Below are positions 23,175 through 36,331 of a DNA stretch of 64,000 bases, one piece after another. The DNA is from Cuniculiplasma divulgatum (GTDB lineage: Archaea; Thermoplasmatota; Thermoplasmata; Thermoplasmatales; Thermoplasmataceae), in contig CP133595.1 in the NCBI GenBank assembly GCA_031200235.1, forward strand, positions 372,001 to 436,000, given 5' to 3'. Position 1 is the first letter of the stretch; every line of letters begins with the position of its first letter. The position numbers were made by a program, and so were the translations under genes. The notes under the pieces are model-generated. The model was not told where the DNA came from. It saw only the letters and a program-made list of their open reading frames with translations, and did not search any database.

Positions 23175-23789
23175 ATGGCAGTAACATTAGGACAGAAAGC
23201 ACCGGATTTCACAGTAAACTCAACGCAGGGTCCAATAACCCTATCAAATTTCAAGGGAAAATGGGTATTGCTTTTCTCGCATCCTGCAGACTTCACGCCT
23301 GTATGCACAACAGAATTCATGGCATTTTCAGAATCCTATGACGAGTTCAAGAAACTTGGAGTGGAACTCATAGGGCTCAGTGTGGACAGCATATATTCCC
23401 ATATAGCCTGGCTCAAGGATATAAAGGACAGGTATGGGATTGAAGTTCCGTTCCCTGTTCTTGCAGATCTTGAGAGAGAGGTTGCAACCCAGTATAATCT
23501 GCTCGACCCTAAGGTGGGCACAACAGTAAGGGGAGTTTTCATAATAGATCCCAACCAGACTGTAAGGTGGATGATATACTATCCTGCTGAAACCGGAAGG
23601 AATATCAGAGAAATCATACGTGTCATAAAAGCCCTTCAGTTCAACTGGGACAAGAAACTGGCCACGCCTGCCAACTGGGAACCAGGCAAAGAGGGGATTG
23701 CCTCAGCTCCAAGCACACTCAAGGATGCTCTTGCAAGAGAAAAGGAAGAGGGTGCAGAACGCTGGTACCTTAAGAGAGTCAAAGCGTGA
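23175..23789 (+). CDS. 1-Cys peroxiredoxin (Prx6 type)
   Basis: A 204-residue peroxiredoxin that reduces hydrogen peroxide and organic peroxides. The peroxidatic cysteine is Cys44 in the motif DFTPVCTTE. It is the only cysteine in the protein, so this is a 1-Cys enzyme that must use an external thiol partner. The long C-terminal arm with NWDKKLATPANWEPG is typical of the Prx6 group. The ATG at 23175 follows GGTGAT at a spacing of about seven bases. A small unknown gene follows after 19 bases on the same strand. Confidence 0.93.
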   Translation: MAVTLGQKAPDFTVNSTQGPITLSNFKGKWVLLFSHPADFTPVCTTEFMAFSESYDEFKKLGVELIGLSVDSIYSHIAWLKDIKDRYGIEVPFPVLADLEREVATQYNLLDPKVGTTVRGVFIIDPNQTVRWMIYYPAETGRNIREIIRVIKALQFNWDKKLATPANWEPGKEGIASAPSTLKDALAREKEEGAERWYLKRVKA

Positions 23790-23808
23790 TATTTTGACTC
23801 TATGTGCC

Positions 23809-24132
23809 ATGTACAACATTACCGTGGGGGACAGGCACCCCGCAGTAATTTGTGTTGATCTCTCAAATGTCAGACAATCACTTCTTGCCCTTGCAGATGT
23901 GCTCTCCAGTGATTATGTGGAGGAAGGCCTGCAGGAGTTCATTGAGGAATTCTCCAGAACGGATGAGGTCATGCCGGAGGACAAGACAGTGGGCTTTGTG
24001 GTTGTTAACTCCACGAAACGGGTCCTGTCATTGTCCTTTGCTTCCATTCCAGAGGATCTCGCGCATAATCTAAAGGCAGATGCCGATTCCTTCAGGAAAA
24101 TAGGCTACGATGTCCAGCTGGACATTGAATGA
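23809..24132 (+). CDS. Small conserved-looking protein of unknown function
   Basis: About 107 residues from the ATG at 23809; a TTG at 23794 would add five. I do not recognise the family. The sequence has a beta-alpha pattern with a strand (HPAVICVDLS), a long acidic helix (EEGLQEFIEEFSRTDEV) and a second strand (GFVVVNSTKRVLSLSF). It has one cysteine and no metal motif. It lies 19 bases after the peroxiredoxin gene and just before the tatA promoter, so it may be co-transcribed with the peroxiredoxin. Confidence 0.55.
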   Translation: MYNITVGDRHPAVICVDLSNVRQSLLALADVLSSDYVEEGLQEFIEEFSRTDEVMPEDKTVGFVVVNSTKRVLSLSFASIPEDLAHNLKADADSFRKIGYDVQLDIE

Positions 24133-24172
24133 GAGCTACCTGCGCACCTGTCCCACTTTCTTCCATAAAAGG

Positions 24173-24179
24173 TTAAATA
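24173..24179 (+). promoter_or_regulatory. TATA box of tatA-tatC
   Basis: TTAAATA centred 25 bases before the ATG at 24201; it decides for that start over the TTG at 24186. Confidence 0.5.
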
Positions 24180-24200
24180 AGCAGGTTGAATTACATTTGT

Positions 24201-24506
24201 ATGTTTGATTCACCCATAGAGTGGTTGATCGTTGTGGCGGTTATACTCCTGCTTTTTGGTAGCACTAAGAAGATCCCGGAATTCGCCAGGAACCTTGGAA
24301 AAGCGACAGGCGAATTCAAGCGCGGGCAGATGGAGCTTGAGAATGAAATCAAGAAAGCCATGAATCCGGCGCCGGCAGCTGCTGATGCCAACAAAGCCAT
24401 AGATTATACCGAGATAGCACGCAACCTTGGAATCGATCCTGCAAACAAGACCCACGAACAGCTCACAAAGGAAATCGCTGAGAAACTGAAGCTCAATGAT
24501 CAATGA
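24201..24506 (+). CDS. tatA: Twin-arginine translocation protein TatA
   Basis: A 101-residue TatA: a short N-terminal membrane helix (WLIVVAVILLLFG), the hinge after FG, an amphipathic helix (KKIPEFARNLGKATGEFKR) and a charged tail. TatA oligomers form the pore through which folded proteins with twin-arginine signals are exported. The start at 24201 is supported by a TATA-like box. Its final codons overlap the tatC start (ATGA). There is no separate tatB, as is usual in archaea. The last 25 residues (AARNLGIDPANKTHEQL-like) form an extra helix of unknown role. Confidence 0.92.
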   Translation: MFDSPIEWLIVVAVILLLFGSTKKIPEFARNLGKATGEFKRGQMELENEIKKAMNPAPAAADANKAIDYTEIARNLGIDPANKTHEQLTKEIAEKLKLNDQ

Positions 24507-25330
24507 CAGACGAAGAATTCCTGCCAATTATCTTTAAGAATATAGATGAGTTGCGTTTTCGCCTAGTCCGTATTCTTGAAGTGTTTGGATTCTTCTTCAT
24601 ATTCTTCCTGATTTTTTCCATAACCAGGGTGACACTATTTGGTGTGTCATTCCCATTCATCACGTTCGATGTTTACCATAATATTCCTGCCCAGTTCCTG
24701 AAACTTCTGGAAGCACACATAATACCCAGCGGGACCCAGCTGCTTGTATTGAAGCCGACAGACGGGGTCTCAGCAAACATATACACAGCGCTGTTCCTTT
24801 CCCTCATATTCGCCATGCCCAATATCGTATATCAGATAGGCAAGTTCATCGGCCCTGCACTTAAGAAGAGCGAGAAGGAACTCATAAGAGTCATAACTGT
24901 GCCAGCAAGCCTTCTATTTGCAGCAGGCGCATTCATGGGCCTCTGGTTCGTGGCTCCGGAACTCTTCACCATATTTCACAATTTCAATATTGGTCTTGGA
25001 GCCGAATCCACCATGGGAGTAATGAGCTTCGTATCTTTCCTTCTTCTGTATGTGGTGAGCTTTGGGGTAGCGTTTGAGATTCCAGTGTTCATGTATGGGC
25101 TTACAAGATCAGGCATGGTTCAGGCCGAAACCTGGTACAAGTACTGGAGGTACGCAATCGTTGGATCATTGATTTTCGGAATGATCTTCTCCCCTGGTGT
25201 GCTTGGGTTCACAATGATGGTGATGTCACTTCCCATGATTGCACTGTATTTTGCAGGTGCCTATTTCGCCATGAGGTACCAGAAAAAATACGGCCAGAAG
25301 GAATCAAATACTGTTACGGAAGCGCTCTAA
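24503..25330 (+). CDS. tatC: Twin-arginine translocase subunit TatC
   Basis: A 275-residue TatC with six membrane helices; it recognises the twin-arginine signal and recruits TatA. The conserved start ELRFRLVRIL follows a short acidic N-terminus, and the loop after helix 2 (PNIVYQIGKFIGPALKKSEKE) is the typical TatC sequence. It overlaps tatA by four bases. Its last 27 bases overlap the end of the convergent crotonase gene. Confidence 0.94.
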   Translation: MTDEEFLPIIFKNIDELRFRLVRILEVFGFFFIFFLIFSITRVTLFGVSFPFITFDVYHNIPAQFLKLLEAHIIPSGTQLLVLKPTDGVSANIYTALFLSLIFAMPNIVYQIGKFIGPALKKSEKELIRVITVPASLLFAAGAFMGLWFVAPELFTIFHNFNIGLGAESTMGVMSFVSFLLLYVVSFGVAFEIPVFMYGLTRSGMVQAETWYKYWRYAIVGSLIFGMIFSPGVLGFTMMVMSLPMIALYFAGAYFAMRYQKKYGQKESNTVTEAL

Positions 25331-26041
25331 TTCAGTCATGGTCAGGCAGCTGGGTGAATAGATCCTGAAGAATAGTGAATCTATTGCTTGCCTGTACTGG
25401 CCTACGCGCTCCGCTGGCTTAAGCATGCTCACAAGCCTTGTCTCCATCTTCCTGCAGTAATTTTCTGCATCTCTGATGAAATTCCTGGAATCTAAGATTG
25501 CTGTTATCATTCCGAACGACTGAGCCTCCTGGATTCCAAATATTGCTCCTGATTTAACTGCGGCAAAGAGCCCCCCGGGATACTTGTCAGGTATTTCAGG
25601 AACAAAACCCGTGAGCGAAGGGATTCCGAACTTAATTTCTGGCATTCCGAAGTGCGATCTCCCGGTGCTGATTATAAAATCAGAACACAATGCGATCTCC
25701 AGCCCCAGGCCAAGAGCGTAGCCGTTTATGGCGGATATGACAGGCCGATCATTCCTCAGTATTATCCTTGCGATTGAAGTTCCAAGTGAATAGGCTTCCT
25801 CCAGATGCATCTTATCGGAGATCTTGGTGCAGGATGCTGAATAGCCAACAGAAAATGCCCTTTCACCACTTCCTGTGATCATTATGGGATTGCTGTTTCC
25901 TGAAAGTGCTTCGGTCAGCGCCATCAGCATATCCCTGAGACCTTCGTTGGTGAGGCTGTTGTTCACCCCGTTTGAAATTGTGACAACATTGAGATCATCC
26001 TCCTTCTTCAAATTCACAAGTGGGACTCTCTCCAGAGACAT
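25304..26041 (-). CDS. Enoyl-CoA hydratase/isomerase family protein (crotonase fold)
   Basis: A 245-residue crotonase. The oxyanion-hole region is recognisable in SGERAFSVGYS and in NGYALGLGLEIALCSD. Both glutamates used by classical enoyl-CoA hydratases appear to be present: LEIALCSD and MPEIKFGIPS. The protein is at the short end for the family, and the N-terminal region (VVTISNGVNNSLTNEGL) departs from the common pattern. Substrate unknown; fatty or amino acid acyl-CoA breakdown is plausible because an acyl-CoA dehydrogenase is encoded at 40415-41557, but the two genes are not linked. Confidence 0.8.
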   Translation of the reverse strand: MSLERVPLVNLKKEDDLNVVTISNGVNNSLTNEGLRDMLMALTEALSGNSNPIMITGSGERAFSVGYSASCTKISDKMHLEEAYSLGTSIARIILRNDRPVISAINGYALGLGLEIALCSDFIISTGRSHFGMPEIKFGIPSLTGFVPEIPDKYPGGLFAAVKSGAIFGIQEAQSFGMITAILDSRNFIRDAENYCRKMETRLVSMLKPAERVGQYRQAIDSLFFRIYSPSCLTMTELERFRNSI

Positions 26042-26098: not shown

Positions 26099-26353
26099 TC
26101 AATACATTGTGAGATTATACTTCCTGTCCATAGCCTGGTAATCTTCCAGGGATTTGATTTTCAGAAGATCTGTGAGTGTTTGCATGGCCCTGGAGTAACT
26201 GTCGTCGTAAATCTCCCTTCCAAGGATCAGGCGTTTCTGCGCTGGATCATACATGACCTGTTCACCGTGCTTCTTAAGGCAGTGGATGCATTCCGCTGCA
26301 GACTCCTCGTTCTCCTCAATGTGGGAAAAGCAATCGTCAAACCTTGCAGTCAT
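26099..26353 (-). CDS. Unidentified 84-residue protein at the end of the complex I operon
   Basis: I do not recognise this family. It has three cysteines and several histidines in the first 30 residues (C8, H11, C22, H24, C25, H29), arranged as CxxH and CIHC, which could hold a metal; the rest is helical. The start overlaps the stop of the preceding 121-residue gene by four bases (ATGA), so the two are translationally coupled. Both trail the nuo genes with almost no gap. Position suggests an assembly, stability or electron-entry role for complex I, but that is inference only. Confidence 0.6.
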   Translation of the reverse strand: MTARFDDCFSHIEENEESAAECIHCLKKHGEQVMYDPAQKRLILGREIYDDSYSRAMQTLTDLLKIKSLEDYQAMDRKYNLTMY

Positions 26354-26715
26354 AGATCATCGCACCTCTTCATGTCAAATTCGGGATACCTTACATTGTA
26401 CCGATCAATGGAAAGCTGCAGCAGGTAGAACAGCGAAGGCAGATAACCATGTTCACCTGTGTGCCTTTCCAGAAGGTTTTCAAGGCCATGGATTCCTCCG
26501 CTAATGGATTTGAACTGCTCCAATGTTATACGGGATCTGAGGAGGCTGTCAAGAGCATTCAGAAACTCCAGGTATTCCTGCAGTTCCGGTCTGCTTCTCC
26601 GCTTCAGGATAATTCCAAGATTCTTTATGCGCCTCTGGATCACCTTCTCCGCATCTCCGATATCTCCGTATATTATTGCACTCTTGATTATTTCCATATC
26701 GCTGTCTATGGACAT
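26350..26715 (-). CDS. Unidentified 121-residue helical protein following nuoN
   Basis: A helical, charged protein of unknown family with two cysteines at most and no membrane segment. I set the start at the ATG at 26715, which lies five bases after the nuoN stop and behind a GGTGA; the frame could extend to 26766 inside nuoN, but that part overlaps nuoN coding sequence. A heptad-like run of Ile/Leu (KVIQRRIKNLGIILKR) hints at a coiled coil. It is coupled to the next gene by an ATGA overlap. It is the first of two genes added to the end of the complex I operon. Confidence 0.6.
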   Translation of the reverse strand: MSIDSDMEIIKSAIIYGDIGDAEKVIQRRIKNLGIILKRRSRPELQEYLEFLNALDSLLRSRITLEQFKSISGGIHGLENLLERHTGEHGYLPSLFYLLQLSIDRYNVRYPEFDMKRCDDL

Positions 26716-26720
26716 TTTAA

Positions 26721-28169
26721 TCACCCGAACAATCCGTTTGCCATGCTTATGAGGGATGGCCACCATATGACCACCACTGAAAGGGCCACTGTTATGAATG
26801 CAGAAGCATATATTGGTACCCTGGTTGAAGTCGACATATCAAATGACTCTCCGGGAATGGGATCCTTCCCAAACATATACAGAATGATCCTGAAATAATA
26901 GAAAACAGAAATTGCGCTGTTCAGTATGGCGATTATGGCAAGCCACCAGAGATTTCCCTCTATGAGTGACAGGAAAAGGAGATACTTGGCAAAGAACCCT
27001 CCAGTTATTGGGACTCCTGCCAGTGCAAGGAGCATCACTGCGAAACTCACAGCAGTTGCAGGTGATTTCTTGGCCAGGCCAGAAACGTCGCTGATCATAA
27101 CATTGTCTTTCTTGATCAGATTCAGTGTTATGAAAGCTCCACCCTTCATGAACACGTAAACTAGAGCATAGAACATCCCTGCCGCAACTGCCACATCAAC
27201 AACTGCAGAATTTGTGTTTCCTACAAAGCCCACCACTGCAAGCACAAGTATCAGATACCCTGCCTGCGCTATGCTGGAATATGCCAGGAGCCTTTTCAGG
27301 TTGTTCTGTGAGAGGGCTGCAACGTTGCCGTATGTCATTGTCAGTATGGAAAGTATGATGAAGAGATATGAAACATCCCTGAAATCCGAGGAGAAACCCA
27401 CAAGGAAAATCTTCAGTATTACCAGAAAAGCCAGGACCTTGCTTCCAGCAGCAAGATACGCAGAGATGGAATTTTCTGTGCCATCATAGGCATCAAGTGC
27501 CCACTGATGCATGGGAAATATTGCCAGCTTAAATCCGAACCCGATTATGAGGAACACAAGTGAAATGAGGAGTTCCGGCGAAGGTGAAGCTGATTTCAGT
27601 ACCTGGAGATTAAATGTTCCGGTCTGAAGAAAGAAGAATGAAGCACCGAAAAGTATGAATGCAGTTGCGATTGTTCCAGTGAAGAAGTACTTGATTGTGC
27701 CTTCCAGGTTACGCCTGGATTTGCCAAAGCTTGCCAGAACATACGTTCCTATACTGACTGATTCGAATGCCACGAAAAGCGTGATTATGTTATAGCTGAA
27801 CGCAGCAAATATCATGCCAACTGAAACAAAGAGCAGGGTTGCGTAGAATACTTCACTCTTTGATTTAATTGACCTTGTTGCCGGATATGAAATGAGCATT
27901 CCAGAAAGCAGCATGACTATGGCGAAGTATATGCCGAAGTCTGAGTACTGGAAAGTGCCATTAAAGAGGGATTTTCCAACAGGTGAAAGGAAAAATACCA
28001 TGATTGCGGATATTCCCAGGGCTCCGAATGAGATCCATGAGATTATACGCTTCTCGATTCTGAATGTTCCAAGGGCAAGGATTATGAAGCCCACAAGCCC
28101 AAGGAATATCTCAGGCGTGAATGTTACAAGAGCCTGTGCTCCACTCAGTGAAATTATTGCAGCTGTCAT
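26721..28169 (-). CDS. nuoN: NADH-quinone oxidoreductase-like complex I subunit N
   Basis: A 482-residue antiporter-like membrane subunit with about 14 helices, one of the three proton-pumping modules of complex I. Conserved features include an early membrane Glu in FVAFESVSIGTYVLASFG, a lysine in FKLAIFPMHQWALDAYDG and the later KRLLAYSSIAQAGY. It is the last recognisable nuo gene in the operon, sharing one base with nuoM. The subunit sits next to nuoM in the membrane arm. Confidence 0.93.
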   Translation of the reverse strand: MTAAIISLSGAQALVTFTPEIFLGLVGFIILALGTFRIEKRIISWISFGALGISAIMVFFLSPVGKSLFNGTFQYSDFGIYFAIVMLLSGMLISYPATRSIKSKSEVFYATLLFVSVGMIFAAFSYNIITLFVAFESVSIGTYVLASFGKSRRNLEGTIKYFFTGTIATAFILFGASFFFLQTGTFNLQVLKSASPSPELLISLVFLIIGFGFKLAIFPMHQWALDAYDGTENSISAYLAAGSKVLAFLVILKIFLVGFSSDFRDVSYLFIILSILTMTYGNVAALSQNNLKRLLAYSSIAQAGYLILVLAVVGFVGNTNSAVVDVAVAAGMFYALVYVFMKGGAFITLNLIKKDNVMISDVSGLAKKSPATAVSFAVMLLALAGVPITGGFFAKYLLFLSLIEGNLWWLAIIAILNSAISVFYYFRIILYMFGKDPIPGESFDMSTSTRVPIYASAFITVALSVVVIWWPSLISMANGLFG

Positions 28170-29650
28170 TAGATTATTCCTCCAACATAGGATACTAGTA
28201 TGCCATAGATCAGATTCGGAACTATTCCAAGAATGAATATGGCTGCGAACGTCCCAATAAGTATGGCAAATCTTGATGGCGTCAAGTCGGCGATCTTGCC
28301 GAGATTCTCATTATAGGGTCCGTAAAGCGATCTCTGCGCTGCCCATATGTGATAGGATGCAGTAACTATCATTCCAAGTATCACCAGCAGTATGAGCCAG
28401 CCGATTGCTGCAAAAGACCCCACAAGAATTGAGAACTCACCGATAAATCCTGCCAATCCTGGAAGGCCAAGGGATGCAAGCAGTCCAGCAAGAAGGAATG
28501 TGCTGAGCATTGGCACTTCACGGTAAATGCCACCAAGACCGTAGGTTGTTTCCTTTCCTGTACTGATCTTTATGAAATACAGCGCCGTGAATATCATGGC
28601 CATGATGAGCCCATGAGCCACTATCTGGAACATGCCACCAGCCAGCTCAAGGCTGGCGGTATATTTTGTGCCCTCCAGAAGGCCTGCTCCGAATGAAAGT
28701 GTGACAAAGCCCATTGCTCCCGCACTGGCGAATGCCATCATGCGCTTGAGGTTCTTCTGGATCAGCGCTGTGAATGAGAAATAAAGGAGGCTGATGATGC
28801 CCAGGGCAACCAGAAGCTGCAGTATACCGGTTCCAAGTGAGCTGTATATTGGCATGAGTATCCCGAACAGCCCGTAACCACCCATCAGGGATAAACCACC
28901 TGCAAGTATAACTGTGCCCGGATACGGGGATGTCTCATACGTATCAGGAAGCCAGGAGTGAAGAGGGAAAGATGGCATCTTCACCAGAAATGCGAAGAGG
29001 AAACCGAAAAATGCGAAATACCTGAGAGCAGTTGGAATCATGTCAATGTACTTCGACTGCATTAGCGCGCCTATCTCGAAGGTGAACACTCCCGTTGCAT
29101 CATAGTGATATGCGTATACTGTGAATATGGCAAGGAGAAGAAACACTGAACCTATGTGTGTATACACGAAGAACTTCAGTGAAACATGATCCTTGTTTCT
29201 TCCCCCGTATTGCGCAACCATGAAGTATACAGGTATGAGCACGACTTCCCAGAATATATAGAAAAACAGGAAGTCTCTGGAAATAAGTATTCCGTAGAGC
29301 CCAACCTCGGTTATCATGATGTATGAATACATTGTCTGGGTGAATTCATGCTTCCCTGCTATGAAAGCCGCGATGAATATGACAATTCCGGAAAGTATGA
29401 GCAGAGCATCGGCAAAGCCACTCACTCCAATGGAGAACGCAATACCGATGGAAGGTGCAAGATTGTAAACACTCTCTGAACGGAATCCTCCAGACCCGTA
29501 ACCCGTGCTGAATCTCAGTGTGCTGTATACTATTGTGGCAATAAGGAATATGGCAGTGGCGATGAGGGCATATTCACGCCTGCGATCCGTAAAGGCGAAT
29601 GAAAACAATGAGGCAAGTACCATTATTATGAATAGTATGAGAATGAACAA
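28169..29650 (-). CDS. nuoM: Complex I subunit M
   Basis: A 493-residue antiporter-like membrane subunit of complex I, about 14 helices. Hallmarks are the functional Glu in FFYIFWEVVLIPVYFMV, the lysine region VKMPSFPLHSWLPDTYETSP and KRMMAFASAGAMGFV. It lies between nuoL and nuoN with one-base junctions, so the three pump modules are translated from one message. Confidence 0.94.
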   Translation of the reverse strand: MFILILFIIMVLASLFSFAFTDRRREYALIATAIFLIATIVYSTLRFSTGYGSGGFRSESVYNLAPSIGIAFSIGVSGFADALLILSGIVIFIAAFIAGKHEFTQTMYSYIMITEVGLYGILISRDFLFFYIFWEVVLIPVYFMVAQYGGRNKDHVSLKFFVYTHIGSVFLLLAIFTVYAYHYDATGVFTFEIGALMQSKYIDMIPTALRYFAFFGFLFAFLVKMPSFPLHSWLPDTYETSPYPGTVILAGGLSLMGGYGLFGILMPIYSSLGTGILQLLVALGIISLLYFSFTALIQKNLKRMMAFASAGAMGFVTLSFGAGLLEGTKYTASLELAGGMFQIVAHGLIMAMIFTALYFIKISTGKETTYGLGGIYREVPMLSTFLLAGLLASLGLPGLAGFIGEFSILVGSFAAIGWLILLVILGMIVTASYHIWAAQRSLYGPYNENLGKIADLTPSRFAILIGTFAAIFILGIVPNLIYGILVSYVGGII

Positions 29651-29651
29651 G

Positions 29652-31589
29652 TTACATCAACCCCGCCAGAAGCATTATGATAAAAACAATGGAAATGCCT
29701 ATTATCAGAACAACAAAGTAGTTCTCCACAACTCCGTCCTGCAGCTTCCTGAAGAATGACCCAAGACTCAATGTTCCTGCCCCTGTCCTGTCCACTGCGT
29801 TGTTGTACGCATTCTCAAATGTGGCAATTCCTCCTGATACAGGTGTTATGACTCTCTCGGCAATTATGTTGGTGAAAAGAGTGTCAAGGTAGAACTTGTT
29901 CTTCGCAAGCCTGTAAAGCCTGTTCTTGCTGAAATCCATGTGTCTCCACCTGTCTGTGCCGTAAAGAACATATGTCACGATAAGGCCTATGGCCAGGAGC
30001 GTGATGGGTATGGCTTCAATGTAAATTGGAACAGACGGAACAAAAGCTTCCGGAGTGATGAATTTATAGAAAGGAGTCTGTATGAGGCCAAGTAAAAGTG
30101 CCCCTGCGGCAAGGATGAACAGTGGTATGAGCGCCCAGACAGAGGGGTCCTTTGCATGCTCAGCCAGGTGTGACCTGGGCTTTCCCAGCGAGACACGGAA
30201 GAACATCCTGAACGTGTAAAGTGTGGTGAGAAGCGAGCCGGTAGCAAGGAATATCCATGGGATAAAACTCCAGGCTGTGCCATAATGCGCATAATAAAGC
30301 CAGGAGGCTGAAATTATAGAATCCTTGGAGAAGTAGCCAGCAGTTCCAGGAAATGCTATGAGTGCCAGCGACCCTATGAAGAGAAGGGTGACTGTCATGG
30401 GCATCTTTCTCCACAGACCTCCCATGTCCCTTGTGTCCCTGAGATCCATAAGGGCTATGAGTATGGCACCTGCTGCCATGAACAGAAGTGCCTTAAACAC
30501 TGCGTGGACAACCAGATGGAACATTCCCAGAGGTACAGCAGCATAACCGAACAGTCCGCCAAGACCTATGGCTGCAAACATGTATCCTATCTGACTTATT
30601 GTTGAATATGCCAGGATACGTTTTATGTCATTTACAAATATTCCGATTATTCCAGCAAACACAGCAGTAAAGGCTCCAAGTATGGCCACTGAATAGAGTG
30701 CGAATGGTGCAGCTGCGTAAAATATGTTGAAGACCCTGGCAACAAGATAGACTCCGGCAGTAACCATTGTTGCTGCATGGATAAGAGCGGAAACCGTAGT
30801 TGGGCCTTCCATTGCATCCGGTATCCATACGTGAAGCGGGAACTGTGCGGATTTACCTGCTGCTCCTGCCAGAAACAGTACTGCAACAATACCAAGAGTG
30901 TTCTTTCCTATATAGGAAGCAATCAGACTGGCATTGTTGATAAGGAACGGTATGCTGAGAGGGCTGTTGCTGCCAAGACCTGGAAAACCAACCAGAGAAT
31001 CGTAAAGAATTGCCATTCCAACAAGGAATAGCAGATCACCAACTCTTGTCACTATGAATGCCTTCTTGGCAGCAGCTGTGGCATTTGGCTTGAAAAACCA
31101 GAAGCCTATGAGAAGGTATGAACACAGTCCCACCAGTTCCCAGAACAGGAAGAATACAACCAGGTTAGAAGCCACCACAAGCCCCAGCATTCCCGCTGTG
31201 AACAGGGAAGTTTCCGCAAAATACACATGCTTATTGGGATCATTCTTCATGTAATACAGGGCAAATAGATGTATCATCAATGACACAAATGATACCATAA
31301 GTGCCATCATTATGGAGAGCCTGTCAATGAATATGCCAATGTCTATGTTGAAGAACCACAGGTAATGGTTGTATGCGTATTGCCCGGTAATAACATAAAG
31401 TTTTGAGCTGTTTGACACAACCGTTCCGGCATCAACGTAGAAAAATGTTATTATTGAGGCAACCAGTGCTCCGCCAACAGCAAGAGATGCTATGATCCCT
31501 GCCAGCGATTTATAACGCTTCCCAACTGCGAGAGCTATTGGGGCACCAATGAGAGGACTTAGAAATATGAACCAACCAGGCCAATACAT
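29652..31589 (-). CDS. nuoL: Complex I subunit L
   Basis: A 645-residue subunit, the distal proton-pumping module of complex I. It shows [20 protein letters not shown] with the key Glu, [30 protein letters not shown] (with TTVSAL here), and [20 protein letters not shown]. The extra C-terminal part contains the long lateral helix and a last anchoring membrane helix ([16 protein letters not shown]). Length is typical. It is followed by nuoM and preceded by nuoK. Confidence 0.95.
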   Translation of the reverse strand: [645 protein letters not shown]

Positions 31590-31590
31590 G

Positions 31591-31890
31591 TTACCACTTT
31601 ATCTCCTTCAGCAGGGAAATGGCAATCCTGCCGACCTTTTTATATGTGGCTGTGAGCAGACTGAGGCCCACAACTGATTCCACTGCGCCTATTGCAATGC
31701 CAAACAGCGCCATTATTAATGGATCAACTGATCCGTAGGCTATTGCTACGGCAACGAGATTGAGAATTGCAGAGTTAATGATTATCTCAAGGGAGATCAG
31801 CATCTTAATGCCGATGTTGGACGTCATCACCCCATAGAGGCCAATGACAAAGAGGATCAGGGAAAGCATGCTCACAAGAAGTATCTGCAT
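31591..31890 (-). CDS. nuoK: Complex I subunit K
   Basis: A 99-residue three-helix subunit homologous to the Mrp C subunit. The membrane glutamates in helix 2 (LISLEIIINSAILNL) and helix 3 region (FGIAIGAVESVVGLSLL) are kept; they form part of the charged axis of the membrane arm. It shares one base with the second nuoJ piece. Confidence 0.93.
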   Translation of the reverse strand: MQILLVSMLSLILFVIGLYGVMTSNIGIKMLISLEIIINSAILNLVAVAIAYGSVDPLIMALFGIAIGAVESVVGLSLLTATYKKVGRIAISLLKEIKW

Positions 31891-32108
31891 TAATCTTCCC
31901 TCCCTGCTATATAGAACATGCCTATGATTCCGGCCACCAGAATGAGCGAAAGCAGTTCAAATGGTATAAGGTATTTTCCGAACAGCGTGGTTCCGATCTG
32001 GGCAATGTTCTGTGAAGATGGGGTGAAGTTGTACCTTATCCTTGCCACTTCAATTCCGAATACAACAAGGAACAGGGCAGCCGCAACTGCTGATAATTTG
32101 TTATTCAA
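31890..32108 (-). CDS. nuoJ2: Complex I subunit J, C-terminal piece
   Basis: A 72-residue, two-helix protein that corresponds to the C-terminal part of NuoJ: an N-terminal helix, a hydrophilic loop (NFTPSSQNIAQIGTTLFGKY) and FELLSLILVAGIIGMFYIAGR, the conserved last helix with its Glu. It overlaps the N-terminal piece by eight bases in another frame. Both pieces have their own start and stop and flow into the operon, so this is a split gene rather than an error. Split nuoJ genes are known in haloarchaea. Confidence 0.85.
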   Translation of the reverse strand: MNNKLSAVAAALFLVVFGIEVARIRYNFTPSSQNIAQIGTTLFGKYLIPFELLSLILVAGIIGMFYIAGRED

Positions 32109-32349
32109 GTTCCTTACCTCCGCTGAGCATCAGTGTAAATACGAGCAGTGTTACTACTGCGCCCACAAAGACTAGAAGCTCCACGGCCCCTATGATTGAT
32201 CCACCAAGGAATATGAAGAGTGCGGAGAGCATTACCAGGAAGACCATCAGATAAACCGCAGAATGCGTAAGGTTCTTTTCTGCAACGGTCTTGAGCGCAA
32301 GTGGTATCAGGATAATGGCGAACAGTATGAGGACAATGGTGTAGATCAC
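32101..32349 (-). CDS. nuoJ1: Complex I subunit J, N-terminal piece
   Basis: An 82-residue, three-helix protein matching the N-terminal part of NuoJ. It includes the conserved stretch NLTHSAVYLMVFLVMLSALF and the pi-bulge helix GAVELLVFVGAVVTLLVFTLML. The ATG overlaps the nuoI stop by four bases. The stop falls at the point where bacterial NuoJ passes from helix 3 to its loop, with the second piece starting eight bases before it. Confidence 0.87.
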   Translation of the reverse strand: MIYTIVLILFAIILIPLALKTVAEKNLTHSAVYLMVFLVMLSALFIFLGGSIIGAVELLVFVGAVVTLLVFTLMLSGGKELE

Positions 32350-32780
32350 TTTATCACCTCGTCCTCGGGCAGTGAGAGCTCTTCAGGGGAATAAGTGAAA
32401 CTGTTTCTTGTCCTGGCGAGTTCGAACGTATGCGTAAGGTAAATGGCATCAGTAGGACAGATCTCCTCACAATTGCGGCATACTGTGCAGGTGCCGAAGT
32501 TAACATCAGGATATATGTGCCTCTTGTTTCTTGGGTTATCACGGTTCACCTTCTGCATGGTTATGCTCTTGTTTGGACAGACCTGCTCGCAGAGGGTACA
32601 CCCAACACAGTCATCAAGGCTCAGGAATATCCTGAACCTGAACCTGTCGGGGTAATCCGGCTTCTCTTCAGGATACTGCACCGTTACCGGCTTCTGGAAA
32701 ACGTGTTTGCCCACAGTTACAACTGCCTTTATTGTGCCTATCAGCGGTATTTCCTTCTTTGGTTCTTTAACTTCTATCAT
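32346..32780 (-). CDS. nuoI: Complex I subunit I, 2x[4Fe-4S] protein
   Basis: A 144-residue iron-sulfur subunit. Two [4Fe-4S] motifs are complete: CVGCTLCEQVCPNKSI and CTVCRNCEEICPTDAI. The subunit relays electrons from the input module to NuoB. Because no nuoE, nuoF or nuoG gene accompanies it, NuoI is a candidate docking point for ferredoxin or another donor. It overlaps nuoH and nuoJ1 by four bases each. Confidence 0.95.
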   Translation of the reverse strand: MIEVKEPKKEIPLIGTIKAVVTVGKHVFQKPVTVQYPEEKPDYPDRFRFRIFLSLDDCVGCTLCEQVCPNKSITMQKVNRDNPRNKRHIYPDVNFGTCTVCRNCEEICPTDAIYLTHTFELARTRNSFTYSPEELSLPEDEVIK

Positions 32781-33817
32781 AGCGACAACCCCAGAGTTAA
32801 TATTCCTGCAATTACCAGGTTAATTATAGCTGCCGGCAACAGATACTTCCATCCCATATTGACAAACCTGTCTATCCTTATCCTTGGAACTGACAGCCAG
32901 ATTGTGAATGAAAGTATGACCAAGACCATTGCCTTGATGAAGAGATATATGAATCCAGCATCGCCTGAAAATGGGCCATTGTATGCACCAAGATAAAGGA
33001 GGGACACTATCATTGAACCCAGGAAGATGCTTCCGAACATTCCCATGTAGAACATGCCGAACCTCATGCCGGAATACTCAATGGAATGGCCTGAGACAAG
33101 CTCACTGTCACTTTCACTCATATCAAAAGGAGAATAAGCTGCCCTTGCAATCATTGCAATGAAGAAAACACCAAGGCCGATCACCTGTGGTATACCATAT
33201 GGAATGGACTGAACGGAAATAAGGTTCACCAGGTCGAGCGGCTGATTTGTCCTGGCTGATGCCATCATCACCAGGGCAAGCACAGAGATCATCATTGGAA
33301 TTTCAAAGGATATATCCTTGGCAACCCCCCTCAGGGCTCCCAGCACGGCATATTTGTTCTTGGAACTCACGCCTGCCAGAACTTCCCCTACAGGCATAAT
33401 GGCCAGTGCCGCGAAGAGAAGCAGGAGGGAAACATCGGAATGTGTAATGGTGAGTGACCCGATGTAATAGAAATCTCCATATGGAATGATGGCAAACGCC
33501 ATTATGAGACCGAGGAAAACAACTATTGGTGCAATCTTGTAGGGCAGATCATCACGCCTGCTTGGGAGTATGCTTTCCTTTCCAACGAGCTTCAGGGCAT
33601 CAGCTATGAGCTGCAGTGTGCCAGCTTTACCCACTCTGTTGGGACCTATCCTCAGCTGCACACGGGCCATGTATTTACGGAAGAGGTATATCATGACTAT
33701 GAGCATGACCACTACGAAAATCAGCATGAACAGTGTTTCGAAGAAATAAGCCAGAATATAAGCAGGGTAATGCCCCAGTATTCCAAAGAATGCCGCCAAC
33801 CTTTCCAGGACACTCAT
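32777..33817 (-). CDS. nuoH: Complex I subunit H
   Basis: A 346-residue membrane subunit with about eight helices that forms the quinone-binding tunnel with NuoB and NuoD. Conserved sequences include RVQLRIGPNRVGKAG-LQLIADALKL near the start and the loop RAAYSPFDMSESDSELVSGHSIEYSGM. It overlaps nuoD by four bases. Confidence 0.95.
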   Translation of the reverse strand: MSVLERLAAFFGILGHYPAYILAYFFETLFMLIFVVVMLIVMIYLFRKYMARVQLRIGPNRVGKAGTLQLIADALKLVGKESILPSRRDDLPYKIAPIVVFLGLIMAFAIIPYGDFYYIGSLTITHSDVSLLLLFAALAIMPVGEVLAGVSSKNKYAVLGALRGVAKDISFEIPMMISVLALVMMASARTNQPLDLVNLISVQSIPYGIPQVIGLGVFFIAMIARAAYSPFDMSESDSELVSGHSIEYSGMRFGMFYMGMFGSIFLGSMIVSLLYLGAYNGPFSGDAGFIYLFIKAMVLVILSFTIWLSVPRIRIDRFVNMGWKYLLPAAIINLVIAGILTLGLSL

Positions 33818-34953
33818 CTGTCCACCTCGCCGAACACGAGGTCAGTGGTACCTGAAATTGAGAAAAGATCAGCTATCATGACATCCTTGGCCAGATATGG
33901 AAGAACACTGAGATTCCTCATGGCAGGGCTCCTCACGTGGACCCTGTAGGGCTTGACACTTCCATCTGCTACAATATAGACGCCAAATTCACCCTTGGAG
34001 GATTCTGTCCTTGCATATGCCTCCCCCTCTCCCCTCAGCCTTATCATCAGGGATTTCTTTGCTTTGGGATTGAAATATGGGCCATCAGGTATCTTCTTGA
34101 TGGCCTGCTTGATTATTCTTATGGACTGGCGCATCTCCTCAAACCTTACCAGAAATCTGGCAAGATTGTCTTTCTTGTATGATACCGGTATGTCAAAGTT
34201 CAGCTTATCGTAAACAAGGTATGGCTCAGCCTTCCTTACGTCATAATCCACGCCAGATGCCCTTAGCATTGGACCGGTCACCCCGTATTCTATTGCAACC
34301 TCAGGCTCAAGAATGCCCACTCCCTTGTTTCTTGATATGAATATGTCATTCTTCACGAATGTGCTGAAAATTTCCTCGAGCTTCTTGGGGAACTCCTCGG
34401 TGAACTGATCTATGTCGTAAATAATCTGGTCATCAATATCCTGGTAAACTCCACCAATGCTCATGTAATTTGTCTGCTGCCTTGAGCCGCTTACTGCGGT
34501 AAAAATTCTCAGTATCTTTTCCCGCTCTATGAAGCAGTAGAAGAATGGGGTTAGCATACCAAGGTCAAGGCCAAAAGCTCCAGCCCACACAAGATGGGCT
34601 GCGATCCTGTTGAGCTCTGCCATTATGACTCTTATCCACTGTGCCCTTTCAGGAGGCGGAATTCCAAGAACTTTCTCAGCAGCTTCCAGATAACCAAGCT
34701 CCATGTTCATTGCGCCAACATAATCCATCCTGTCAAAGTAAATTAGGGAATCGCAGTAATAATCCATCTCACAGAGTTTTTCAGCATTTCTGTGGAGATA
34801 TCCTATAATGGGCTCAACGTCCTTGACTGTTTCTCCGTCAAGCTTTACTCTCAGCCTCAGTACACCATGAGTGGATGGATGCTGCGGACCGATGTTGAGC
34901 TCAACCCACTCCCTGGACTGATCTATCTTCTCCCCTTCAACAACCATTACCAA
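33814..34953 (-). CDS. nuoD: Complex I 49-kDa-type subunit D
   Basis: A 379-residue NuoD, which lines the quinone site. The conserved start ELNIGPQHPSTHGVLRL carries the quinone-binding His, and the closing TTDLVFGEVDR is the family ending. The nickel-binding cysteines of the related hydrogenases are absent, as expected for complex I. It overlaps nuoC by seven bases; internal ATG starts a few codons on would avoid that. Confidence 0.95.
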   Translation of the reverse strand: MVMVVEGEKIDQSREWVELNIGPQHPSTHGVLRLRVKLDGETVKDVEPIIGYLHRNAEKLCEMDYYCDSLIYFDRMDYVGAMNMELGYLEAAEKVLGIPPPERAQWIRVIMAELNRIAAHLVWAGAFGLDLGMLTPFFYCFIEREKILRIFTAVSGSRQQTNYMSIGGVYQDIDDQIIYDIDQFTEEFPKKLEEIFSTFVKNDIFISRNKGVGILEPEVAIEYGVTGPMLRASGVDYDVRKAEPYLVYDKLNFDIPVSYKKDNLARFLVRFEEMRQSIRIIKQAIKKIPDGPYFNPKAKKSLMIRLRGEGEAYARTESSKGEFGVYIVADGSVKPYRVHVRSPAMRNLSVLPYLAKDVMIADLFSISGTTDLVFGEVDR

Positions 34954-35408
34954 CCATCTCCGGGATCAAAGGTTGCGTAATCATTGCCGTCTTCGTCCAT
35001 GTTTATGTACTGTACCTTTGACAGGTCATAGTTCTTCCTGAGTGGGTGGCCAACCCAGGATTCTGGCAGGAACAGGCGCTTAAGGTTTGGATGGCCTTCA
35101 AAGACTATACCCAGCATGTCATACTGTTCACGCTCTTCCCAGTTGGCCGAAGCATACAGGGATGAAATACTGGGCATTCTTTCATCCGTAGTCTCTGTTC
35201 TGACAACTACGTACTCATTTTCCTTCATGTTGTGAAGGTGATAAACCACTTCCAGCCTGTCCTTGCGGTCAATGCCGGTAATCAGGGAAAGATGGTCGTA
35301 GCCCTTGCTCTTCAGGTCCTTTATCAGTTCAACAAGATTTTCCTTGGCGACCTTGAGATTTCTCCTTCCATCCTTTCCCCTGGTCTCCTCGATAATTTCA
35401 ACCAACAA
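34947..35408 (-). CDS. nuoC: Complex I 30-kDa-type subunit C
   Basis: A 153-residue NuoC. The signature NWEEREQYDMLGIVFEGHPNLKRLFLPESW is clear, with GHPLRKNYDL after it. NuoC and NuoD are separate here, unlike the fused form of Escherichia coli. A three-base gap separates it from nuoB. Confidence 0.94.
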   Translation of the reverse strand: MLVEIIEETRGKDGRRNLKVAKENLVELIKDLKSKGYDHLSLITGIDRKDRLEVVYHLHNMKENEYVVVRTETTDERMPSISSLYASANWEEREQYDMLGIVFEGHPNLKRLFLPESWVGHPLRKNYDLSKVQYINMDEDGNDYATFDPGDGW

Positions 35409-35411
35409 TCA

Positions 35412-35885
35412 TCACCTCTCCGCTTCGTTCCGTATCTTTTTCTGAAGCAGCATTATGCCGTATGTCAGCGCCTCAGGAGTTGGCGGGCATCCTGGAACAT
35501 ATACGTCAACTGGAACCACCCTGTCAACACCCAGGACCACGGAATATCCAAGATGATATGGCCCTCCCTGGATGACGCAGACTCCCATTGCTATAACGTA
35601 CTTGGGGTAAGGCATCTCATCATAGATTCTCCTTAGCCTTGGCGCCATCTTTTTCGTGACAGTGCCTGATACTATCATCAGATCAGACTGCCGGGGTGAG
35701 TTTCTGAAAATTTCACTCCCAAACCTTGAAATATCCAGATTGGAAGCCTGTATTGCCATCATCTCTATGGCGCAGCATGCCAGTCCAAAAGTCAACGGCC
35801 AGAGCGAGTTGCTTCTGGCCCATTCCATGGCCTGATCAACTGTTGTTGTAAGTGCACCGCCTTCTCCACTCTTCACTTCTGCCAC
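35412..35885 (-). CDS. nuoB: Complex I subunit B, N2 cluster protein
   Basis: A 157-residue NuoB that holds the terminal [4Fe-4S] cluster N2. The tandem cysteines are in [13 protein letters not shown], the third in [12 protein letters not shown] and the fourth in [13 protein letters not shown]. Its start overlaps nuoA by 13 bases. Confidence 0.95.
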
Positions 35886-36331
35886 CTCATATATCCTTCC
35901 CTGAAAGCATAATAGACCACAAACAGTGGCATGGCCAGGAACAGGATTGTCTCAAGGAACGGGAATATTCCCAGTGCTTTGAAATCAAATGCCCACGGGA
36001 AAAGAAGGACCATATCCACATCAAAAAGTATGAAAAGAAGAATTATAACGTAATACTGAACGGTAACGAATTTGCCTATTTCTCCCCGGGCAACCTCGCC
36101 GGTTTCATACGGCTCCAGGTATGACCCATCTTTGGCGGGGGGTGAACGTTCAAGAACCAGATTCTGAATAATATCGTCCGGTTTCATGCTAAACTTCTTA
36201 TTTGGCCTGTACCGGCTTTCCCCAAGTGTGGGAAGAAGCATAAACAGTCCGATCATCCCGAGAACCATTAGAACCAGGGTGATTAGCAATGGGATGTATC
36301 CGTCCAACATCCACTGAGTATCGTTAGACAT
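35873..36331 (-). CDS. nuoA: Complex I subunit A
   Basis: A NuoA of up to 152 residues with three membrane helices. Family features are [20 protein letters not shown] in the first loop and [27 protein letters not shown] with its conserved acidic residues. It is the first gene of the operon. The annotated start is the ATG at 36331, but a TATA-like box sits only a few bases before it. The ATG at 36310 (residue 8, MLDGYIPLL) lies about 26 bases from that box and may be the true leaderless start. Confidence 0.92.

Follow-up and report, generated by a model that had tools for sequence, protein, structure and literature searches.

Archaeal-type complex I operons of the form nuoABCDHIJJKLMN have been reported for Cuniculiplasma and for the 'plasmas' of acid mine drainage (available portions of PMC5155288 and PMC3750248), and the entry of electrons into the complex I of Thermoplasmatales is posed as an open question in the former. 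In Campylobacter jejuni, Cj1574c and Cj1575c replace nuoE and nuoF and pass electrons from flavodoxin, according to the accessible part of PMC4178425; accessory subunits A9, A12, S4 and S6 on bacterial complex I are described in the available text of PMC12361115; and FpoO and FpoF are named for the Methanosarcina Fpo complex in the excerpted PMC4153887. Here we analyse a 64,000-nucleotide stretch of the Cuniculiplasma divulgatum genome (the window), which carries a nuo operon with the same gene content and order as that of Cuniculiplasma and the 'plasmas', a kind in which NuoEFG is mostly missing in the available portions of those accounts. Behind nuoN, where the nuo genes listed in the same portions of PMC5155288 and PMC3750248 end, the window carries two further short genes, here called X and Y.

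The operon runs on the minus strand from 36331 to 26099 in the order nuoA B C D H I J J K L M N X Y. It comprises nuoA (35873..36331), nuoB (35412..35885), nuoC (34947..35408), nuoD (33814..34953), nuoH (32777..33817), nuoI (32346..32780; 144 aa with two 4Fe-4S motifs), nuoJ in a first piece of 82 aa (32101..32349) and a second of 72 aa (31890..32108), nuoK (31591..31890), nuoL (29652..31589), nuoM (28169..29650), nuoN (26721..28169), X (26350..26715; 121 aa) and Y (26099..26353; 84 aa), the two nuoJ pieces being assigned from their place in the operon and from the order nuoJJ given in the available text of PMC5155288. X begins 5 bases after nuoN and overlaps Y by 4 bases (ATGA), and the other joints of the operon are overlaps of 1–13 bases or gaps of 1–3 bases; 57 bases separate Y from an enoyl-CoA-hydratase-like gene downstream on the same strand. 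The initial annotation of this DNA had described two short genes after nuoN in an operon devoid of an NADH-input module, and the coordinates, sizes, gap and overlap that it gave are all correct, as is the absence of nuoE, nuoF and nuoG from 36331–26099. Downstream, at 23175–26041, the enoyl-CoA hydratase gene is followed by convergent genes for TatC, TatA, a 144-aa hypothetical protein and a peroxiredoxin; this block is kept in many loci with X and Y, and the 144-aa hypothetical recurs even in loci that lack the rest of it.

The arrangement at the end of the operon is conserved. Across 69 distinct Y loci, with gene starts chosen by rule, nuoN, X and Y are consecutive on one strand in 67, with nuoN–X gaps of −4 to 31 bases and an X–Y gap of −4 in 53 of the 67 (−16 to 21 in the others); that the two genes follow nuoN, a point raised for checking in the initial annotation, holds in all but two of these loci, both with split operons. 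Compared with locus L104, X has a dN of 0.031 and a dS of 0.244 and Y a dN of 0.017 and a dS of 0.453, dS against L106 and L107 being near or at saturation; both genes are under purifying selection. Because homologues lie directly 3′ of nuoN in nearly all loci and selection preserves them, X and Y are not chance open reading frames.

Neither protein resembles a described family. The window proteins have no credible match in Pfam or NCBIfam at E values up to 1, the sole Pfam match (Exo70_N) being taken as chance, and none at this threshold to NuoE, NuoF, NuoG or NADH input families. Pfam searches with 36 X and 38 Y homologues returned no credible family among the matches listed (24 of 24 families in one list, 25 of 36 in the other); these are scattered, concern one or two members each and are taken as chance, including DUF5674 (best at 3e-4 in one of 38 Y homologues) and RNA_binding (0.004 in one of 36 X homologues). 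A sequence search of the PDB gave nothing below E 0.15 for X or 0.33 for Y, and Foldseek against the PDB gave zero matches for either at E ≤ 0.001. With VIA-align, the best score for X was Z 8.3 to a designed protein, among common helical arrangements, and the comparison with 2cwy reached Z 7.2 (83 residues aligned at 3.1 Å), both in the range that the tool itself grades as uninformative; for Y there were two matches, with a highest Z of 2.6. On this sequence evidence, X and Y would constitute two new protein families.

The two families are distributed with complex I within a single archaeal order. In a near-relative sample of 61 genomes (the window's own and 60 relatives), Y occurs in 50, corresponding to 50 of 51 genomes with nuoA (recognized by PF00507) and 0 of 10 without. 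X was found in 47 by single-sequence search, and a profile search of the fetched loci added three genomes of family f3 (G051, G054 and G060), giving the same 50 genomes as Y. All ten genomes lacking nuoA (families f2, f5 and f6) are without X and Y, and in G025, the sole nuoA-positive genome of the 51 without them, the contig ends about 580 bases past nuoA. In a class-wide sample of 300 genomes, nuoA is present in 238, Y in 55 and X in 55 with strong and 4 with weak matches. Within the order, Y occurs in 55 of 56 nuoA-positive and 0 of 8 nuoA-negative genomes (f5), the exception being G311, an 83% complete genome in which neither X nor Y was found; every strong match falls in the order's families f1, f3 and f4, and Y is absent from the sample's 182 nuoA-positive genomes outside it. 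A phylum sample of 340 genomes gave 35 strong matches for each protein, all within the order, and a pattern search across 84,980 species genomes gave 42 loci, all in records of Thermoplasmata, Thermoplasmatota, Thermoplasma, Thermogymnomonas, Acidiplasma, Thermoplasmatales or uncultured archaeon; from these record titles we read the order as Thermoplasmatales. The suggestion that the proteins are lineage-specific is therefore borne out, strong matches being confined to one order in the sequence and profile searches of the class and phylum samples.

Weaker matches were discarded. Those to X in G050, G055 (within the order, f5), G081 and G164 have E values of 6e-4 to 9e-3, sit inside open frames of 252–1338 aa and are attributed to chance, as are the G050 match that reappeared in the phylum sample, second weak X matches in G141, G166 and G198, and weak Y matches at E about 1e-3 in the genomes G328 and G424; all of these are excluded from the strong counts. 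A match to X at G020:C1:1103531 (E 0.002, two internal stops) was dropped because the profile did not recover it. The window's own genome has one credible match each for X and Y. Genome G002 has two X/Y loci (G002:C10 and G002:C20; L002 and L086) with Y proteins 98% and 94% identical to that of the window and is probably a mixed bin, and in L114 (Thermogymnomonas acidicola JCM 13583) the matches to several nuo genes are broken into many pieces, which looks like assembly frameshifts.

The tight joints in the window, the conserved nuoN–X–Y order and the co-occurrence with nuoA uphold the earlier statement that the two proteins are made with complex I. Genes at the end of an operon can also show this pattern when they encode assembly factors or regulators. 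That X and Y are regulators or unrelated passengers, such as translation or redox sensors tuning the expression of the nuo genes, would suit small soluble proteins at the operon end, one of which has a Cys cluster common in f1; we nevertheless consider it very improbable, given that neither protein has a credible match to a nucleic-acid-binding or sensor family, that the two are present in every sampled nuoA-positive member of the order except two incomplete genomes, and that copies of X track copies of nuoM.

This last relationship emerges from the two loci that break the rule. In L023 (genome G022) and L130 (G316), Y lies directly after nuoN with gaps of 10 and 9 bases. G022 carries nuoK–nuoN–Y at one place and nuoL–nuoM–X at two others (L081 and L082), and G316 carries nuoN–Y without X between them and two nuoM–X pairs elsewhere (L146 and L148), on short stretches in which nuoL falls outside the sequence covered. 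A search with NuoM found one nuoM in X-bearing relatives and two in G022, matching one X per nuoM; G026 has two NuoM matches, both fragmentary and located on a single contig, whereas G002 has two X and one NuoM match, its second X lying on a short contig whose first bases fall within nuoM. The core nuo operon of G022 has no nuoL or nuoM beside nuoN. The paired copies in G022 are 54% (NuoL), 48% (NuoM) and 28% (X) identical to each other, and the duplicate nuoLM–X sets are old; with the NuoM copies at 48% and the X copies at 28% identity, each pump pair has kept its own X. Since X follows nuoM when operons split and Y stays behind nuoN, X is associated with NuoL/NuoM and Y with NuoN and the core, and the location of X after nuoM points to the far membrane arm, away from the entry arm. 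As the Y proteins of G022 and G316 are alike, the two genomes are probably close relatives, and the rearrangement may therefore have happened only once; from an ancestral order L-M-N-X-Y, X would be the gene that moved, and its arrival behind nuoM could be partly chance.

We find an even chance that X and Y are order-specific, non-redox, stoichiometric accessory subunits of complex I that stabilise the membrane arm and are docked by their C-terminal tails. Near-universal presence with complex I, one X per NuoM, invariant tails and the lack of a cofactor are best fitted by this explanation. The A9, A12, S4 and S6 subunits, as described in the available part of PMC12361115, offer a precedent for lineage-specific accessory subunits of prokaryotic complex I of the kind proposed for X and Y, which differ from them in forming separate families with no such Pfam match among the matches listed.

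X and Y are small soluble proteins by sequence, and their structure models are good. Mean pLDDT is 80.6 for X (36 sequences) and 87.0 for Y (38 sequences), and neither protein has a long hydrophobic stretch (best 19-residue Kyte–Doolittle mean 0.56 for X and −0.12 for Y). The X model consists of six helices followed by a tail, with residues 108–117 at pLDDT below 50, and Y is modelled as a small alpha/beta protein with helices surrounding two short strands. Conservation is concentrated at the C-termini. The tail of X, RYNVRYPEFDMKRCDD, is nearly invariant, with a mean column entropy of 0.94 bits over the last 17 residues against 2.38 in the body, and the NLTMY tail of Y has a mean of 0.00 bits over the last 5 residues against 1.41 elsewhere. 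All 51 Y sequences from the three families of the order share R41, E47, M57, N80, T82 and Y84, and G17, R105, Y106, P111 and R117 of X are invariant in the 26 sequences aligned. A conserved tail predicted to be unstructured by itself would resemble a docking peptide.

The same tails could be client-binding peptides if X and Y were instead assembly factors, the main rival reading, in which X would chaperone the insertion or docking of NuoL/NuoM and Y would do so for NuoN or the core, both leaving the finished complex. Co-transcription and one X per nuoM fit this equally well, and the weak TPR-like and 14-3-3-like resemblances of the X model, among common helical folds, would lean towards it. 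We rate it as possible though doubtful: invariance of a tail to its last residue across an order would be expected more often of an element that stays buried in the complex, and X and Y stand at the operon end together with structural genes.

The N-terminus of Y had drawn attention as Cys/His-rich. C8, H11, C22, C25 and H29 are all present in the window protein, along with H24, a residue left out of the original list of ligands. In 51 distinct Y sequences (37 from f1, 9 from f3 and 5 from f4), C8 and C25 each occur in 33 of 37 f1, 0 of 9 f3 and 5 of 5 f4 members, C22 in 26, 0 and 1 members of these families, respectively, and H29 in 14, 0 and 1; the Cys residues are also lost in genera g3 and g12 of f1. 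None of these four positions provides a universal ligand set, and an iron–sulphur or zinc site is thus not part of the common function of the family; a Cys/His electron carrier was rejected on this conservation pattern. X has one frequent cysteine, C118, which is replaced or missing in some homologues. FpoO is an iron–sulphur subunit whose gene lies in the Fpo operon; like X and Y, it is encoded by a short additional gene within an operon, there for a complex related to complex I, and Y differs in keeping no universal Cys. The Pfam FpoO family, which we take to be PF10621, is not among the matches to the window X and Y at E up to 1 or those listed for their homologues, a negative that leaves room for remote homology.

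These results bear on the proposal that the two proteins form part of the electron entry site. X and/or Y could provide a docking face for a soluble donor, standing in for NuoEFG or for the ferredoxin-like extension that NuoI carries in sister lineages. The electron donor of the complex is left open in the accessible part of PMC5155288, and Cj1574c/Cj1575c, as portrayed in the available text of PMC4178425, are likewise two extra proteins in a nuo cluster without nuoE and nuoF. By description, however, X and Y are unlike that pair in following nuoN, in having no universal cofactor ligands and in siding with nuoM and nuoN. With no universal metal ligands in Y, C118 of X replaced or missing in some homologues, and X found after operon splitting behind nuoM rather than nuoB, C, D or I, the entry-site idea is weakened, the claim based on the Cys/His cluster is not supported, and we regard a replacement entry module as distinctly unlikely, though docking that involves no cofactor is conceivable.

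The entry side of the complex does differ in this lineage. We compared 20 sets of nuo proteins from loci with X and Y (17 of the 42 scan loci, L163, L164 and the window itself) with 12 operons of other families of the class (L149–L151, L153, L154, L157–L162 and L165; nuoA found in 11), L152, L155 and L156 being omitted from the 15 fetched loci outside the order as their nuo matches are partial or rearranged. NuoI is 244–324 aa long in all 12 operons outside the order, with a C-terminal ferredoxin-like extension and extra 4Fe-4S motifs, and 135–184 aa without such an extension in all 20 X/Y-bearing sets, the window included. NuoC in the 20 sets has a conserved C-terminal tail, QY[IV]NMDE.GEDYATFDPGDGW, absent in 11 of 12 operons outside the order; NuoC of L151 has a tail, but one different from that of the order. 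The shorter NuoI and gained NuoC tail are points in favour of an entry module. The NuoA loop is also longer in the 20 sets, and 5 of 17 order-specific NuoM columns fall within the six-residue stretch 446–451 of the 443–451 loop, a clustering that 5 of 100000 random placements attained and that is a hint only because the columns are not independent. None of the 14 loci outside the order with a nuoN match has X or Y after nuoN; 11 of them (L149, L150, L153, L154, L157–L162 and L165) have a polyprenyl-synthase-like gene there, named by reading, often with an FAD-oxidoreductase-like gene, which by sequence suggests a link to lipid quinone synthesis. The absence of X and Y outside the order marks them as its own additions, beside other differences in the complex.

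An input module was also sought elsewhere in the genome, where one NuoF homologue lies at G000:C1:1312569-1313084, 0.9 Mb from the nuo operon. This NuoF-like protein of 487 aa overlaps an 889-aa formate-dehydrogenase-like one (L167 7204-11324; named by reading), and the pair is likely, from its sequences, to be an NAD-linked formate dehydrogenase. Because it adjoins a formate-dehydrogenase-like gene, the NuoF homologue is not evidently the missing input module, and it was set aside as a candidate.

As accessory subunits, the helical protein X would sit on the membrane arm at NuoL/NuoM, and the alpha/beta protein Y would bind closer to NuoN and the core; both are small. Each would dock through its unstructured, nearly invariant C-terminal tail, which may become ordered once on the complex; they would carry no common cofactor and would serve as permanent stabilisers of the arm and not as transient builders. 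We infer physical binding, the binding sites, permanence in the finished complex and the function of X and Y from the patterns described above. To our knowledge, Thermoplasmatales include the most acidophilic organisms known. A more far-reaching scenario, which we think unlikely, is that the complex I of the order was remodelled as a whole, with the NuoI extension missing and the NuoC tail different: X would clamp NuoL and NuoM, possibly tuning pumping against extreme external acidity, Y and the NuoC tail would shape a donor docking face, and NuoLM pairs with their X would be modules open to duplication and exchange, as G022 and G316 illustrate.

We found no mention of X or Y in the literature listings and available portions of papers covered, including those for locus tags, which are approximate (Ta tags estimated, CSP5 tags counted on from the available part of PMC5155288). 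Two unnamed families accompany complex I nearly wherever it occurs in the order, and one of them follows the NuoL/NuoM pump pair. From the operons that are split and duplicated, the distal pump module together with X may be an exchangeable unit, and X and Y provide named targets for testing how the complex I of Thermoplasmatales is built and run.
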